A stretch of 64,000 bases of DNA from Bacteroidaceae bacterium. Lineage in GTDB: Bacteria > Bacteroidota > Bacteroidia > Bacteroidales > Bacteroidaceae. The notes beneath the pieces were generated by a model, which had not been told where the DNA came from, made no database searches, and worked only from the letters and a program-made list of their open reading frames with translations. Positions within the stretch are counted from its first letter, which is position 1. Every line of letters starts with the position of its first letter. This document shows positions 28,259 through 36,391 of this stretch, in pieces. The position numbers and the translations under genes were made by a program. The stretch lies in assembly GCA_024683455.1 (NCBI GenBank), contig JAIKYE010000090.1, positions 1 to 64,000 on the forward strand. The letters run 5' to 3'.

Positions 28259-29934
28259 TTTATCTTGTCAATAATGCCTGAGGCTAAAGTATCACCTAAG
28301 TCAACGGCTTTCTGTAGATATTTCTTGGCTTCTGTCTTGTTGCCTTTCTGATTATAGCAGACGCCTATTATGCGATAAGGATCAGAGAAACTTTCATCTA
28401 AATCGATTGCTTTCTTTCCGTATGCAATTGCATCGTCAAATTGTCCTATTCTGTAATTGAGGGCGGCAGCTTCCGCGTAGTACAAAGGCTCTTTAGAATC
28501 AATCGACATGGCCTTCTCTATATCAGAGAGTGCTTGCGGGTACATGCGGCATTTGATTTCCAGCTGTTCTCTTCCGTAGTAGAAGTTGGCATTCAGTTTA
28601 CCGCTTGCCAGACGTTCATAATCGTTTAGCCCCATTACGGCATCTTTGTTCTTACCTGCTTTTGCAAGGTAATCGGCTCTTATCAGTATTGCATTTGCTG
28701 CAGTAACAGGGTAGGGCTTACTGTAACAGGCCAGGGCGCTATCAAGTAATGCCAAGACACCTTCTTCTTTATTTTGAACTATCTGACATTGGGCTGCACT
28801 CAGGAATGTGTCTGCCGAACGTAGGTTTGTCTTTGTCAGTGAGATGTATTTCTCTTGTGCTTCATCGTATCTTTTCAGGGCAAAAAGACAGTTGGCTTCC
28901 TGTTGGGTGTATATGGGCAATGGATTATTGTCATATGCTTTTCTTGTCTCTTCCAGTGCCTTGTCCATGTCCCAATCATTATATTTGTTATATGCATTGT
29001 TTAGGTTCAATGCATATATAGCTTTAGCCTTTGAGAAAATGACCTCATCTTTGTTTATTTCTTTCGTATTCAAGGCTTCTTCGTATATCTTGTCGGCTTC
29101 AGCATAGTCGTTCTGTTCGATAAGCCTTTCTGCCTTCAAAATTCTTCCTGAGGTGTTGGTCGGATACTTCTGAATGAATGCATCAATACTTGCCATATAT
29201 GTACTACTGTCCTTTCTGTCCAACAAATACAGATAGGTGAGTGCATCTTCTTCCGTCTCAGGGAGGGATTTCTTGATGTAGATGTCCTTCAGGTCTTTGT
29301 TTCCTGCATCCATCGGCTTTATCCTCAAGTCAGCAATAAATTTGCCATCAATAACGTATGCGTTTTTCCCTTCCGTAGCTGCTAGCTGCAACAGACCAAT
29401 CATTTCACCGTCTTCAGTCAATACGGCACTATTCTTCAATCGATCATTGGCAGGATTGGAAATAGTATAATAATTATATGTTTGCTTGAAAGTTTCCACC
29501 AGGGTGATTGTATCTTCTTTGCAAAGTGTATTCTTTCCTGCTTTCACGTTGGGAAGGATATAGATAACGCTTTTTTCTTTTGCTGCCACCGAGGCAGGTG
29601 TTAGATATGTTATCTTGCCCTTGGGGAGCTCAACTTGCAGTTTGGCTACATTATACATGGCATTCGCGCCCGCTATTTCTTTGACAGGATATTCTTTACC
29701 TGCAGCATCCACAACTACAGCATGGGTGGCATATTTCAGGGCATCATACTCTGTGAGGATTGTACCCTTGGCGTCGGTAAAGACACCTTGTGTCTCCTTC
29801 ATCTCTCCATTCTTGTTATAAACCATTACGGCAACTTGTGCACCCCTTACCTTTTTAAACCATTTTGGAGACTGTGCAAATGATGGAATTATATATAATA
29901 ATGTAACGAGAAGTAAAAATAGATTTTTCTTCAT
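28255..29934 (-). CDS. exported trypsin-like-fold (apparently degenerate) N-terminal domain fused to TPR repeats
   Basis: Signal peptide; N-terminal region resembles HtrA/S1C fold but without clear NNHVV/D/GNSGGP triad; C-terminal TPR units (AEAAALNYRIGQFDDAIAYGKKAIDLD). Confidence 0.65.
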   Translation of the reverse strand: MKKNLFLLLVTLLYIIPSFAQSPKWFKKVRGAQVAVMVYNKNGEMKETQGVFTDAKGTILTEYDALKYATHAVVVDAAGKEYPVKEIAGANAMYNVAKLQVELPKGKITYLTPASVAAKEKSVIYILPNVKAGKNTLCKEDTITLVETFKQTYNYYTISNPANDRLKNSAVLTEDGEMIGLLQLAATEGKNAYVIDGKFIADLRIKPMDAGNKDLKDIYIKKSLPETEEDALTYLYLLDRKDSSTYMASIDAFIQKYPTNTSGRILKAERLIEQNDYAEADKIYEEALNTKEINKDEVIFSKAKAIYALNLNNAYNKYNDWDMDKALEETRKAYDNNPLPIYTQQEANCLFALKRYDEAQEKYISLTKTNLRSADTFLSAAQCQIVQNKEEGVLALLDSALACYSKPYPVTAANAILIRADYLAKAGKNKDAVMGLNDYERLASGKLNANFYYGREQLEIKCRMYPQALSDIEKAMSIDSKEPLYYAEAAALNYRIGQFDDAIAYGKKAIDLDESFSDPYRIIGVCYNQKGNKTEAKKYLQKAVDLGDTLASGIIDKIK

Positions 29935-31601
29935 TGTTTCAATAATTGTTTGGCATTCAAGATGGCAGCTTCAGAAACTTCATTCCCACTGAGCATGTGG
30001 GCAATTTCTGTTACTCGTTCTTCTTGTGTCAGTTTACGTATATGACTGTATGTTTGCTCGTTTGTATCTTCTTTGTAAACCCAGTAATGCGTTGTTCCGC
30101 ACGATGCTATCTGGGGTAGGTGGGTAATTGTTATGACCTGATGCTCATTGCCCGTTGTCATTTCTTTCATCAGATTGGCCATAGATGAGGCTACTTTTCC
30201 GCTCACACCGGTGTCTATCTCGTCAAATATGATGGTAGGCAGATTCTCCTTTTTGCTTGTTATGGCTTTTAATGCAAGCATCAATCGAGCTATTTCTCCA
30301 CCACTGGCTACCTCGGAAATAGCCCTCGGTGCTGCATTTTTGTTGGCCGAGAAGAAGAAAGTTACCTGATCGGAACCGTTTTCTGTCAGTTGGCGGCTCT
30401 TTTCTATCTTTACTCCGAACCTGTTGTTTGGAATGTCCAGCTGTGTTAACATCCTGCTTACGGATGTTTCCACCTCCTTAGCGGCTGTCGCTCTGCTCTT
30501 GCTTAGTTGGTCTGCCAACGCTGTTGTCTTTGCAAGCTTTTCCTGAACAGCCTTCTCCAACTCGTCTATTTTCTCTTCACCGTTGCTGATAACATCCAGT
30601 TTCTGTCTTATATCTTGCATGAAAGATTCCAGTTCGGCAGCAGATTTTACGTCGTGCTTTTTCTCCAAAGTATATAGGCGGTCGAGCCTATTGTTTATTT
30701 CTTCCAGTCTGGCTGGATTGTATTCTACTCTTTCTGCCAGACTGTTGAGCTCTGCACTTATATCTTTCAACTCAATAAGGGCACTTTCTATGCGTTCTCC
30801 AAATTCTTCTACAGCGGGATAGACACGGGTTAGCGATTGAATGTCTTGGCAGATGTGCTTCAGTAGTTCTATGACACCGCCTTGTTCGCTGTCGTTGCTG
30901 AACTGGGAGTCGGCCTTGTATAGGACGGTTTTTATCTCTTCTGCATGGCTCAACTCATTCTGTTCCTCTTCCAGTTCCTCATCTTCGCCAGCCTTGGGAT
31001 TGAGCTCTTCTAACTGGTCCAACTGAAAACGCAGATAGTCTTCTTCTGTTCTGGAGCGTTCCAGTATTTCCTTGGCGTTCTTCAACTCCTGTTCTGCTTG
31101 CTTGTATGCAACATAGTTGGCGTAATATTCTTGAAGTAGCGCATTGTTCTGCGCCATTACATCCAGAATGTGAAGTTGAAAATCTTCTTTGGCAATGAGC
31201 AGGTTCTGATGTTGGGAATGTATATCTATGAGTTGGTAGCCCAGTTCCTTCAGGAAAGCCAGATTGGCAGGACTGTCATTGACAAAGGCTCTGCTTTTTC
31301 CGCTGGTTGTAAATTCACGGCGTATGATGCATTCGTGTTCATCGAAGTCCGTGTCGTTTTCTTCGAATAAAGCTCTCAGATTATACCCTTCTATCCCAAA
31401 GGTGGCTTCTATTGTGCATTTCTCGGCACCGGGCAGTATGCTCTTTATATCCGCTCTTTGACCTAAAAGGTGGTTGATAGCTCCCAGCATGATGGATTTT
31501 CCTGCACCTGTTTCACCTGTGATGACGGAGAAACCTGACTGGAAATCAATATCTAACTCTTTGATGAGTGCAAAGTTCTTGATATAAAGATGCTTAAGCA
31601 T
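29931..31601 (-). CDS. recN: DNA repair protein RecN
   Basis: VITGETGAGKSIMLGAINHLLGQRAD, IIFDEIDTGVSGKVA, ITHLPQIAS. Confidence 0.96.
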   Translation of the reverse strand: MLKHLYIKNFALIKELDIDFQSGFSVITGETGAGKSIMLGAINHLLGQRADIKSILPGAEKCTIEATFGIEGYNLRALFEENDTDFDEHECIIRREFTTSGKSRAFVNDSPANLAFLKELGYQLIDIHSQHQNLLIAKEDFQLHILDVMAQNNALLQEYYANYVAYKQAEQELKNAKEILERSRTEEDYLRFQLDQLEELNPKAGEDEELEEEQNELSHAEEIKTVLYKADSQFSNDSEQGGVIELLKHICQDIQSLTRVYPAVEEFGERIESALIELKDISAELNSLAERVEYNPARLEEINNRLDRLYTLEKKHDVKSAAELESFMQDIRQKLDVISNGEEKIDELEKAVQEKLAKTTALADQLSKSRATAAKEVETSVSRMLTQLDIPNNRFGVKIEKSRQLTENGSDQVTFFFSANKNAAPRAISEVASGGEIARLMLALKAITSKKENLPTIIFDEIDTGVSGKVASSMANLMKEMTTGNEHQVITITHLPQIASCGTTHYWVYKEDTNEQTYSHIRKLTQEERVTEIAHMLSGNEVSEAAILNAKQLLKQ

Positions 31602-31607
31602 AAAGTC

Positions 31608-32519
31608 TTACTTCTTTATTTTCTGCCATTCGTTGTCTTGCGACGCATCAATGGCAAAGAGAATCTCGTAGGCCTTGTTTTTTTCTTCGGTTGTTCCTTT
31701 TCCCGAATAGATGTTTACCAGTTCGTTCCTTTTGTATTCGGTGAATAGTTGGGCAACCTTATTCATGTTCTTGGCTTTGTGGGCCTCAAGTAGCAAATCC
31801 AGCGCTTCTGTGATGGCTGCCCTGGCAGAATCTGTGTTCTCTGCCATCTGGTCCAACCCTTTTCTGTGGTAGATGTATTCAAACTCACGCATGCATTCCA
31901 TAGAGCCGTCAAGGTAATCGTTGAGCAGACCGAATCGGTTGCCTGCGTCGCTGAAGGCCTTCCAGCCGGGAAAATCGAGATTCTGACCAACCGATACAAT
32001 ATTTTCAGCTGTCTGGAAGCATGATGTTCCTCCCTTAGGCGACATGGTGTCGAGATCCATGCCTATAATCATATAGGCGTAGTAGGCAAGTAGCGCTACC
32101 AAGTTGTTGTCCACTTGATTCTCCTGATATTCCAGTTGATCAAACTCAGAGAATCTGAATACGAATTCCCTGTCGTTCACCGAGTAGCATACGGTATTGT
32201 AGTTGCTATTGAATACAGGTCGGTTGCTGGACATCAGCAGGGTACACTTGAACGTGTTATCTTCTGGCTTGTATTCGTTGACTGTGATATTGAAGTTGCA
32301 CTGAATCTTCTCGTTCTCGCGGAAGGCTATCTCTGTCCACTTGTGGTTGTTCAGAAACTCCTCAATGGTAGTCTGAAGCTTAGGGAAAACATCCGTCTTG
32401 GTGGTTTCTATCTGGGTATAGTTGATGTTTACCCTGGCATTCAACTCCTGTGCATTTAGCCGTACGTTAACGTTAACGAATACGAGGACTGCGATTAAAC
32501 GAGTGAAGAAATTCTTCAT
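31608..32519 (-). CDS. porD: DUF4835 family protein (PorD-like, type IX secretion-associated)
   Basis: Signal peptide, QELNARVNINYTQIETTKTDVFPKLQTTIEEFLNNHKWTE; gene position between coaBC and recN as in Bacteroidetes. Confidence 0.75.
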   Translation of the reverse strand: MKNFFTRLIAVLVFVNVNVRLNAQELNARVNINYTQIETTKTDVFPKLQTTIEEFLNNHKWTEIAFRENEKIQCNFNITVNEYKPEDNTFKCTLLMSSNRPVFNSNYNTVCYSVNDREFVFRFSEFDQLEYQENQVDNNLVALLAYYAYMIIGMDLDTMSPKGGTSCFQTAENIVSVGQNLDFPGWKAFSDAGNRFGLLNDYLDGSMECMREFEYIYHRKGLDQMAENTDSARAAITEALDLLLEAHKAKNMNKVAQLFTEYKRNELVNIYSGKGTTEEKNKAYEILFAIDASQDNEWQKIKK

Positions 32520-33712
32520 TTTATGATTGATACCAGTTTATTTACAATATCTTTGGCTACCTCTTTCTTGGATTTCAGCGGGAATGGAGTCTCGCAGTCT
32601 TTGTCGATGAGTGTAACCTTGTTGGTGTTATGTTGGAACCCCGCGCCGTCGTCTCGCAGGCTATTGAGGACGATGAAGTCCAGATTCTTCTTCTGCAGTT
32701 TCTCCTTGGCGTGGTTCTCCTCGTCGTTTGTTTCCAGCGCAAAGCCCACCATTACCTGATTCTGCTTCTTCATCTTACCTAAAGCCTGAGCGATGTCCTT
32801 TGTGGGGGTCAGTTCCAGGATTAGCTTGTTGCCTTCGCGCTTTATCTTGTTGTCCGCAACGGTAGCAGGAGTGAAGTCGGCTACGGCTGCGCATAGGATA
32901 GCGGCATCTGTATGAGGAAAGAGCTCTGTGGCTGCCTGATACATTTGTTCTGCGCTCTCCACATCAGTCCTTTTAATGTTGGGATGGTTGGGCTCGATGC
33001 TTACGGGGCCGCAAACCAACTCCACCTGAGCACCACGTTCGGCGCATTCTTCGGCCAGAGCGATGCCCATCTTTCCGCTACTGTAGTTGCCTATAAAGCG
33101 CACTGGATCTAGCTTCTCATATGTGGGGCCGGCAGTGATTAGCACCTTCTTGCCTTGCAGGTCGGCCTTCTGTGTAAAGAAGTGATCCAGAACCTCAATT
33201 ATCTTTTCCGGTTCCTCCATACGCCCCTTGCCTTCCAGTTTGCTTGCAAGAAAGCCTGTGCCGGGTTCTATAATATGATTCCCGTACGAACGCAGGGTCT
33301 CTAAGTTCTTCTGGGTGCTGGGATGAGCATACATGTCAAGGTCCATGGCTGGGGCAACGAATACTGGTGCCTTCATGCTTAGGTAGGTGGTTATGAGCAT
33401 ATTGTCAGCCACACCGTTTGCCATCTTGCCAATGGTGCTGGCGCTGGCGGGGGCGATAACCATGGCATCTGCCCATAGTCCTAACTGCACATGTGAGTGC
33501 CAGGAACCGTCTCTGCGGTCGAAGAACTCACTTACTACAGGCTTGCCGGTAAGGGTGCTCAGGGTGAGAGGCGTAATGAACTCTTTCCCTGAAGGGGTTA
33601 TGACAACTTGCACCTCGGCTCCTTGCTTTATCAAGCCTCGAATCAGGTAGCATGCCTTGTAGGCAGCAATGCTGCCTGTAATGCCCAGCACTATTTTCTT
33701 ACCCTGCAGCAT
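32516..33712 (-). CDS. coaBC: bifunctional phosphopantothenoylcysteine decarboxylase/phosphopantothenate-cysteine ligase
   Basis: GITGSIAAYKACYLIRGL, PAMDLDMY, ITAGPTYEKLDPVRFIGNYSSGKMG. Confidence 0.96.
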   Translation of the reverse strand: MLQGKKIVLGITGSIAAYKACYLIRGLIKQGAEVQVVITPSGKEFITPLTLSTLTGKPVVSEFFDRRDGSWHSHVQLGLWADAMVIAPASASTIGKMANGVADNMLITTYLSMKAPVFVAPAMDLDMYAHPSTQKNLETLRSYGNHIIEPGTGFLASKLEGKGRMEEPEKIIEVLDHFFTQKADLQGKKVLITAGPTYEKLDPVRFIGNYSSGKMGIALAEECAERGAQVELVCGPVSIEPNHPNIKRTDVESAEQMYQAATELFPHTDAAILCAAVADFTPATVADNKIKREGNKLILELTPTKDIAQALGKMKKQNQVMVGFALETNDEENHAKEKLQKKNLDFIVLNSLRDDGAGFQHNTNKVTLIDKDCETPFPLKSKKEVAKDIVNKLVSIIK

Positions 33713-34469
33713 ATTTGAAACGGAGTTTTGTCAGCACTTGCTTAGTGTTCATTGTGAAGTCGCTCTGCATGATCCAACCGTAATAGCCGGGGTCTTTCTG
33801 GAGCACTTCTTTCACGGGCTTTCCCTTGTATTTGCCAAAGTTTACCAGCTCTACGCCTTTATCGTCATAAACGAAACGCCCAGCAAAGTCTATGTTGTTG
33901 CCCATCTTAGAGTAGTCCGAGAGGAACTGTATGTCATTCTGCAGGTCTTCTGGGTATTTGTCTAGTTGAGCTTGCAGTACCTCGTAGGTGGCTTGTGTAT
34001 CGGCCAGTGCACTATGGGCATTCTCCAAGTCCTTGTTGCAATAGTACTTGTAGGCGGCAATCAGCGTACGGCGTTCCAGTTTGTGGTAGATATTTTGCAC
34101 GTCCACCAGTTTGCGTTTGCTTAAATCAACCTCTACACCGGCACGCATGAACTCTTCTACCAATAGGGGTACGTCGAACTTGTTGCTATTGTAGCCGGCC
34201 AGATCACATCCCTCAAAAGTCTGCCAGAGTGTCTTGGCTACCTGTTTGAAGGTAGGGCAGTCCTTTACGTCCTCGTCATATATTCCGTGAACCTTGCTGG
34301 CTTCCTCGGGGATGTGTACCTCGGGGTTGATGCGCATGCTCTTGGCTTCTTCATTGCCGTTGGGTTCAACGCGGATATAACAGAGCTCCACAATGCGGTC
34401 TTTGGCAATGTCCAGACCTGTGGTCTCCAAGTCGAAGAATATGATGGGGTTCTTCAGTTTGAGCTTCAT
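33699..34469 (-). CDS. DnaQ-like 3'-5' exonuclease
   Basis: IFFDLETTGLDIAKDRIVELCY, GYNSNKFDVPLL, AHSALADTQATYEVL; C-terminal FGKYKGKPVKEVLQKDPGYYGWI. Confidence 0.92.
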   Translation of the reverse strand: MKLKLKNPIIFFDLETTGLDIAKDRIVELCYIRVEPNGNEEAKSMRINPEVHIPEEASKVHGIYDEDVKDCPTFKQVAKTLWQTFEGCDLAGYNSNKFDVPLLVEEFMRAGVEVDLSKRKLVDVQNIYHKLERRTLIAAYKYYCNKDLENAHSALADTQATYEVLQAQLDKYPEDLQNDIQFLSDYSKMGNNIDFAGRFVYDDKGVELVNFGKYKGKPVKEVLQKDPGYYGWIMQSDFTMNTKQVLTKLRFKYAAG

Positions 34470-34484
34470 GCCTAACGCAACGTT

Positions 34485-35609
34485 TTATTCCTCTACACGC
34501 ATGGGCATTAACAGCATCAGCACCTCGTCGTCAGTGTTGTCGTCAGCAGGACGAATGATACCTGGGCGGCTGGGGTCTGCTACTTCCAATGTGATGGTGT
34601 CGCTCTCAATGATGTTGGCAATCTCCAAAAGGAACTGGCAACTGAAACCAATGCTGATGGGGCTTGCTGCATATTCGCAGGTAAGGAATTCTTCTGCGCT
34701 GGTGGCGTACTCGTTGTCCTGACCGGTTAGCTTCATGCTGTTGTTGTTCAACTCAACCTTTACTAAGCCGCTGCTCTGGTTGCAGAATACGGCTACGCGC
34801 TTCAGGGCGCTGGCAAGGGCTACGCGGTCAACGGTAGCCTTGAATGGGTTGCTCTGTGGAATTACAGCATTATAGTTGGGGTAGCGGCCCTCAATTAGGC
34901 GGAAGTGCATGGTCATGTCTTCAGACTTGATAGTAGCCTTGTCCGTATCAAAAAGGATTTCTATCTGCTCCTCATCCTTGTTCAAGACGTTCTTTAAGAT
35001 GGCACAAACCTTCTTGGGAAGGATGAATCCTGCTGTCAGTCCTGTCTTTATGCTGTGTACGGTGTTGCGTACCAACTTGCGGCCGTCTGTACCGGCAAAG
35101 ATAAGATAATCTGGAGCGATATCTACGTAGATACCGTTCATGACCAGTCGGATTTCATCGTTTGCGGTGGCAAACAGGCATCGGTTGATACCGTTCAGCA
35201 GAACTTCTGCAGGCAAGGTCAGACGGGTAGCGTTATCGCTTACTTTCTTGTAGAGAGGGTAGGGAGCAGCATCCTGGGCCATTACGCTGAAGCTTCCGCT
35301 GCTGTGCACACCTTCTACCTTCATAGTTTCTTCGTTAAAGGTGATGGCCAGAGGCTGCTCAGCCAGTTCCTTGATAGAATCTATAATAGTCTTGGCAGGG
35401 ATGCAGAAACGCGCATCGCCACTCTGCTCTATAACGGGAGCTGATGTAATATAATACTTTTCGCTATCGGAAGCTGTGATAGTGATATTACCGTCCTTTA
35501 CGTCAAACAATATGCAGTCAAGGATAGGCATGGAGTTCTTGGACCCCATAACTTTGCTGGCCGCGGTCAGACGGCTGTAAAGTGCTGAACTAGAAACTTT
35601 GAATTCCAT
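34485..35609 (-). CDS. dnaN: DNA polymerase III subunit beta (sliding clamp)
   Basis: Three-domain clamp architecture, FLLEIANIIESDTITLE..., C-terminal LMLLMPMRV; start at MEFKVSSSALYSRL. Confidence 0.95.
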   Translation of the reverse strand: MEFKVSSSALYSRLTAASKVMGSKNSMPILDCILFDVKDGNITITASDSEKYYITSAPVIEQSGDARFCIPAKTIIDSIKELAEQPLAITFNEETMKVEGVHSSGSFSVMAQDAAPYPLYKKVSDNATRLTLPAEVLLNGINRCLFATANDEIRLVMNGIYVDIAPDYLIFAGTDGRKLVRNTVHSIKTGLTAGFILPKKVCAILKNVLNKDEEQIEILFDTDKATIKSEDMTMHFRLIEGRYPNYNAVIPQSNPFKATVDRVALASALKRVAVFCNQSSGLVKVELNNNSMKLTGQDNEYATSAEEFLTCEYAASPISIGFSCQFLLEIANIIESDTITLEVADPSRPGIIRPADDNTDDEVLMLLMPMRVEE

Positions 35610-35747
35610 ATTATTATGTGTATTGTATATTTTTGTACAAAGATACTGAATTTTTCCTGTACACCAAAAAAACACACTGAAAAAAACGTGTAGTAAGATA
35701 TTTTTTCATACCTTTGTGGCACGATTTAAAAAAATATATAGAAACAT

Positions 35748-36176
35748 ATGGAAATAACAGGCAAAATTATTGCAGTACTCGAGCCTAGAAGGGGTACTTC
35801 AAGCAGAACAGGAAGTGAATGGGTTTGTGGCCAGTATGTATTGGAGACAATGGACCAGTATCCCCGTAAACTATTCTTCGAGGTTTTCGGTGCTGATCGT
35901 ATACAGCAGTTCAATATTCAGTTGGGTGAGGTAATGACCGTCTCTTTCGATATTGATGCACGCGAATACCAGGGCCGCTGGTTCAATGGCGTTCGTGCTT
36001 TCCGCGTTGACCGTAACGTTCAGGCTGCTCCCATTGCTGCTGCTCCCGTAGCACCTGATACCACACCTTTCGGCGGTGCACCCGTACCTACTCAGGCACC
36101 CGCTGCTCCCGCTACTGAGACTCCTGCTGCAGCTCCCTTTGCTCCTCAGGCAGAGGGCGAGGACTTGCCTTTCTAA
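35748..36176 (+). CDS. DUF3127 protein: OB-fold-like N-terminus, Pro/Ala linker, SSB-like acidic C-terminal tip
   Basis: MEITGKIIAVLEPRRGTSSRTGSEWVCGQYVLET...YPRKLFFEVFG; low-complexity A/P-rich linker; ends EGEDLPF. Confidence 0.85.
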   Translation: MEITGKIIAVLEPRRGTSSRTGSEWVCGQYVLETMDQYPRKLFFEVFGADRIQQFNIQLGEVMTVSFDIDAREYQGRWFNGVRAFRVDRNVQAAPIAAAPVAPDTTPFGGAPVPTQAPAAPATETPAAAPFAPQAEGEDLPF

Positions 36177-36225
36177 ATGAAAATATTAGGCTATGAGGCG
36201 TTAGCCTTTAGCCAGATGCATATTG

Positions 36226-36260
36226 GGGCGCTTTCCATTGGTTTGGAAGGCGCCTTTTTT
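36226..36260 (+). terminator. intrinsic terminator downstream of the DUF3127 gene
   Basis: GGCGCTTTCCA-TTGGTT-TGGAAGGCGCC followed by TTTTTT. Confidence 0.9.
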
Positions 36261-36277
36261 AGGGATAAGGGTATAGT

Positions 36278-36382: not shown

Positions 36383-36391
36383 GTACCTTTG
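36383..36391 (+). promoter_or_regulatory. candidate Bacteroidetes -7 promoter box (TACCTTTG) without an obvious downstream long ORF
   Basis: gccgTACCTTTGcag, matches TAnnTTTG. Confidence 0.5.

Follow-up and report, generated by a model that had tools for sequence, protein, structure and literature searches.

In the Bacteroidota, the acidic C-terminal tip of the canonical single strand DNA binding protein (SSB, Pfam family PF00436) is unstable, while an SSB-like tip is kept by a second protein, termed DUF3127 (PF11325). This is a new observation; that PHROGs labels the phage members of the DUF3127 family as SSB is already known. The DUF3127 gene described here is found in a 64,000-nucleotide stretch of DNA from a Bacteroidaceae bacterium, termed the window. 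Its product is likely to work like SSB. The best reading of the sequence data is that the DUF3127/phrog_4932 protein represents a second SSB-like hub of the Bacteroidota, with a predicted capacity to bind ssDNA. The main point lies beyond the window: the canonical SSB of the same organism is tipless.

According to the literature, every known bacterial SSB shares the tip (PMC3991886), and in Escherichia coli SSB it is a hub for at least 17 partners (PMC10018359). In a whole class of bacteria the SSB tip is also borne by another core protein that has hardly been studied, and SSB is tipless in many species of the class. In the literature searched, DUF3127 is mentioned solely in a phage genome report.

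The DUF3127 gene and its neighbourhood

The features of the locus are as follows.

34485..35609, - strand: dnaN, sliding clamp gene, ATG at 35609 (open reading frame; divergent order kept only within the family)
35638..35645, - strand: TATCTTTG, putative -7-type promoter box for dnaN (TAnnTTTG pattern scan)
35709..35716, + strand: TACCTTTG, putative -7-type promoter box of the DUF3127 gene, lying 31 nt ahead of its ATG (TAnnTTTG pattern scan)
35748..36176, + strand: DUF3127 (PF11325) SSB-like gene, 142 amino acids (open reading frame call; Pfam and PHROG matches)
35748..36014, + strand: predicted OB-fold domain, residues 1-89, in which loops L23 and L45 are short (AlphaFold2; Foldseek against the PDB)
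36015..36152, + strand: Ala/Pro-rich linker, residues 90-135, variable and predicted with low confidence (disordered; pLDDT 54-69, hypervariable in length and sequence)
36153..36173, + strand: SSB-Ct-like acidic tip EGEDLPF, residues 136-142 (its P and F do not vary across the phylum)
36225..36262, + strand: intrinsic-terminator-like hairpin with U run (-22.3 kcal/mol, z -4.8)

An earlier note on this DNA had reported the open reading frame, a domain of ~90 amino acids, an Ala/Pro-rich linker and the EGEDLPF end, and all are exactly as described; the protein terminates in QAEGEDLPF. It had also placed the gene divergent from dnaN across a gap of ~140 bp with one shared promoter region. The divergent arrangement and the gap (138 bp) stand, but the gap probably carries two promoters, since it contains two back-to-back TAnnTTTG boxes, one per gene; TAnnTTTG is the pattern of the Bacteroidetes -7-type promoter box. 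With a strong terminator hairpin 3′ of its stop codon, the DUF3127 gene is probably monocistronic.

Proximity to dnaN is a weak argument for a role in replication or repair, since the arrangement characterises the family and not a wider group. The divergent order occurs at 81 of 120 loci, each belonging to a close relative or to the window's family; no other locus checked outside this family shows it. At the loci checked outside the family, no neighbour, dnaN or other, is broadly common.

Two other elements of the neighbourhood were observed. The - strand cluster at 29931-35609 of the window comprises dnaN, an exonuclease gene, coaBC, a small secreted-protein-like gene and recN, an order that recurs in the window's family. 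Another promoter-like TACCTTTG box is present at 36384-36391 and is followed by ~600 bp, downstream to 37000, that display no sizeable same-strand open reading frame. A search of Rfam gave no match downstream of this box; the region from the box to 37000 might possibly encode a non-coding RNA.

Family matches and predicted fold

In Pfam profile searches, residues 2-87 match PF11325 (E 7e-28, 97.1 bits against a curated cut-off of 27), and no match to PF00436 was detected at E<=1. The DUF3127 protein is not a member of the canonical SSB family. It does match phrog_4932 end to end (protein residues 1-142, tail included, to positions 1-117 of the 117-position profile; E 5e-15), a family annotated in PHROGs as phage 'single strand DNA binding protein'. 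In other DUF3127 members, SSB PHROGs are still matched when the OB domain is searched by itself. Compared profile to profile with canonical SSBs of the Bacteroidota, DUF3127 gave P values of 1e-7 at full length and 0.0036 when restricted to the OB domain.

Searching solved structures by sequence turned up no match to DUF3127, and therefore a comparison of folds was needed. A predicted OB fold was one test that the earlier note set for its proposal, and structure prediction yields such a fold. With 64 homologues from the window and other loci, AlphaFold2 modelled residues 1-89 with high confidence and the remainder with pLDDT 54-69; residues 1-89 alone gave pLDDT 94.8 and pTM 0.81. The modelled domain displays the OB-fold strand order, with a helix between main strands three and four. 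In Foldseek searches of the PDB, PriB is the top match for both models (structures 1woc, 1v1q and 4apv), and SSBs make up most of the match list, among them Bacillus subtilis SsbA, mycobacterial SSB, Rim1 and Streptomyces SsbB. The models thus point to an evident but distant kinship with SSB and PriB, as the TM-scores are mostly moderate (0.5-0.7). In the profile-profile alignment, the SSB loops L23 and L45 are largely missing from DUF3127, which suggests why ordinary searches overlook the relationship.

Conservation of the C-terminal tip

The homologues from genome searches were recruited with PF11325, whose model ends before the linker, and consequently they were not selected for the tip. 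The earlier note had made conservation of the tip in orthologues a test of its proposal, and the tip is conserved: every one of the 126 distinct homologues first collected has PF at its end and an acidic residue among the four positions before it, and 75 of them end in DDLPF. In a phylum-wide alignment of 64 sequences no column is invariant except P141 and F142, and entropy rises from 0 bits at these last two positions to ~3 bits six residues in. The tip is found in 22 of 22 homologues from distant families and in all 56 copies with a complete end in the window's own family. The linker next to it is hypervariable in both length and sequence. Among background open reading frames of at least 200 amino acids, only 8 of 1,247 end in PF, and two of these are misextended DUF3127 frames; the background rate is ~0.5%. 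Judged from these sequences, the tip is not a product of chance, since 126 of 126 homologues keep PF despite the hypervariable linker, against 8 of 1,247 in the background. Conservation within the E. coli SSB tip is likewise highest at this P and F, and a change of the tip proline disrupts partner binding (PMC10018359).

Several genomes carry secondary DUF3127 copies (loci L358, L360, L364, L365 and L366) of 92-101 amino acids that are devoid of linker and tip, both of which the main copy in each of these genomes has. These are possibly on mobile elements.

Distribution and phage copies

Of the 99 genomes sampled from the window's class, 97 carry PF11325, as do 223 of 396 in the phylum, usually as a single copy. 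In the control genomes it is present in 1 of 14, the Bacteroides one. The named relatives are Bacteroidaceae and Prevotellaceae draft genomes, mostly from rumen and gut. Where plasmid and phage matches have a named host, that host always belongs to the Bacteroidota.

Phage copies, as in Cellulophaga, Flavobacterium and Maribacter phages, are situated among genes for exonuclease, Erf, NinG and primase/helicase. All five phage C-termini that were read end in DLPF or GLPF. None of five phages tested has a canonical SSB scoring above the PF00436 cut-off; the single weak PF00436 match in these phages is the DUF3127 protein itself (17.2 bits, E 1.8e-4, below the cut-off of 26). These replication cassettes lacking a canonical SSB, together with the invariant tip, the predicted OB fold and the phrog_4932 match, support the SSB-like hub role suggested in the earlier note.

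In Maribacter phage Panino (locus L186, 3951-4291), the DUF3127 sequence is split over two frames, and the annotated SSB gene represents only the C-terminal part. The split is attributable to sequencing error or decay.

Loss of the tip from canonical SSB

A canonical SSB is present alongside DUF3127 in all 25 genomes first checked. The C-termini of both proteins were read genome by genome and locus by locus. Among the 60 genomes of the window's family that have an SSB, the tip of the best canonical SSB is proper in 33, degenerate in 11 and absent in 16, spread over 11 genera. In 25 genomes of this family the SSB tip is lost or weakened and the DUF3127 tip is kept; the reverse is found in none. 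A tree of concatenated domains required 11-12 changes of the SSB tip, an approximate figure as many branches are weak. Genomes of one family are not independent of each other.

A second family (f5) shows the loss throughout. In 8 of 8 genomes, several of them single-contig assemblies, SSB is 109-111 amino acids long and ends right after the OB domain, without a tip, and DUF3127 ends in DDDLPF. The tipless SSB is the sole PF00436 protein in six of the eight. In some genomes of other families, tipless and tipped SSBs are found side by side.

The SSB of the window organism is encoded at 67.8 kb of the contig, 4 kb beyond the window end and directly upstream of a gldE/CBS-like gene. It consists of 119 amino acids, ends in TTEGNNV and is tipless, as is the SSB of two of three genus-mates. 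The window's assembly, a draft that is 83% complete, was scanned for frames ending in an acidic residue, a hydrophobic residue, P, F and a stop, and DUF3127 is the only such frame of more than 40 codons. The same scan of a single-contig genome (G419) detected no other frame of more than 52 codons, and DUF3127 is the only plausible gene. All 17 tipless-SSB genomes tested encode PriA and RecO, which are known to bind the SSB tip.

A second PF00436 match in the window's assembly (locus L187, G000:C19:1500-3164), in an rpsF-ssb-rpsR fragment on a 3-kb contig, encodes an SSB ending in DDLPFK and was rejected as the organism's own. This contig is probably contamination because a second S6 gene is found on contig C53, whereas genus-mates have one.

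DUF3127 is not in every genome the sole owner of such a tip, an idea that was considered and abandoned. A DnaB-type helicase in one f5 genome (locus L410, G309:C1:2827344-2828158, - strand), from a lineage whose canonical SSB is tipless, ends in DFDDDDDFPF (MNDFDDDDDFPF), and DUF3127 is therefore not the sole tipped protein of that genome, the helicase being an unexpected further source of tips.

An overexpression phenotype reported for a Bacteroidales ssb concerns the SSB of a mobile element, and DUF3127 is unmentioned there (PMC11300592).

Proposed role and alternatives

The explanation that we regard as probable is that DUF3127 is a second SSB-like protein of the Bacteroidota that carries the SSB docking tip, works beside SSB, supplies the tip in trans where SSB is tipless, and is used by phages in place of canonical SSB. 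The OB domain would bind ssDNA, and the flexible linker would present the tip, itself evident in the sequence, for docking of SSB-interacting proteins such as PriA and RecO, whose genes are present. In lineages with a tipless SSB, of which the window organism is one, the DUF3127 protein beside it may provide the docking tip in trans. Labour would then be split, SSB mainly coating ssDNA and DUF3127 recruiting partners. Phages of Bacteroidota hosts appear to use the same protein instead of canonical SSB. By analogy, such a natural OB-linker-tip architecture should at least be workable, since an engineered PriB-SSBc chimera, in which the PriB OB domain carries the SSB tail, stimulates PriA and has a higher ssDNA affinity than PriB (PMC8509808).

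A complete replacement of the SSB hub by DUF3127 is lineage-specific at most because more than half of the window's family keeps both tips. The same retention of both tips, and the coexistence of tipless and tipped SSBs in some genomes of other families, are consistent with DUF3127 being an accessory, redundant SSB-like protein in bacteria where the SSB tip was lost as unimportant, with no compensation involved. This is unlikely, albeit deserving of serious consideration: an unimportant tip should decay in DUF3127 too, but it is kept in every complete copy of the family beside a freely varying linker, and the tip-binding partners PriA and RecO are retained. A little less plausible is a PriB-like replication-restart factor, whose OB domain would act mainly with PriA at stalled forks, the tip improving the PriA contact, and which would not be a general SSB hub. 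The rank of PriB among the structural matches to both models, the properties of the PriB-SSBc chimera and the presence of PriA in all genomes tested fit such a factor. However, natural PriB has no tail, SSBs form most of the match list, phages carry DUF3127 where SSB is expected, and the repeated loss of the canonical SSB tip suggests a broader cover.

OB folds also bind other ligands, such as RNA, proteins and sugars, and can lose DNA binding. With its shorter L23 and L45 loops, DUF3127 could be a mimic or regulator that dimerises or binds SSB and whose tip competes with SSB for partners, but a competitor would be pointless where SSB is tipless, and phages keep DUF3127 as their apparent SSB; we consider this very improbable. 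General OB-fold versatility is all that speaks for a cold-shock-like RNA-binding protein with a coincidental C-terminus, and against it are the invariant SSB tip, the SSB and PriB structural neighbours and the phage replication cassettes, so that it is scarcely credible.

A wider form of the preferred explanation, a second tip carrier acting beside SSB, is tentative and has slightly less than an even chance of being right. It holds that the SSB hub of the Bacteroidota has been split off, with DUF3127 as a near-universal second SSB-like tip carrier. Freed in this way, canonical SSB would have lost its tip some twelve times within one family and throughout a second, and the hub would also be exploited by phages of these hosts. 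A second tip carrier would give a function to a DUF found in nearly all Bacteroidia-class genomes sampled and would explain how tipless-SSB cells could still recruit repair enzymes. It also makes it possible to ask, by clean genetic means, whether the hub can move to another protein.

Comparison with known systems

Like bacterial SSB of the PF00436 family, DUF3127 has an OB fold, here a predicted one, a variable disordered linker and an acidic tip ending in PF, and neighbouring canonical SSBs that have a tip display the same DDLPF end. Unlike bacterial SSB, it has no PF00436 match, its L23 and L45 loops are shorter and its tip is kept where SSB loses it. The phage family phrog_4932 is the same family as DUF3127, as the full-length match includes the tip, but it represents a phage gene of replication/recombination cassettes, whereas host DUF3127 is a chromosomal core gene. 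PriB provides the closest solved fold to the DUF3127 model. It has neither linker nor tip, whereas DUF3127 has a linker and an invariant tip and resembles a natural form of the PriB-SSBc chimera (PMC8509808). The secondary SSBs, SsbB of firmicutes and streptomycetes and mycobacterial SSBb, are likewise a second OB protein beside SSB, and several are among the structural matches. Secondary SSB paralogues are typically tipless; in the Bacteroidota, the second protein is the one that keeps the tip.
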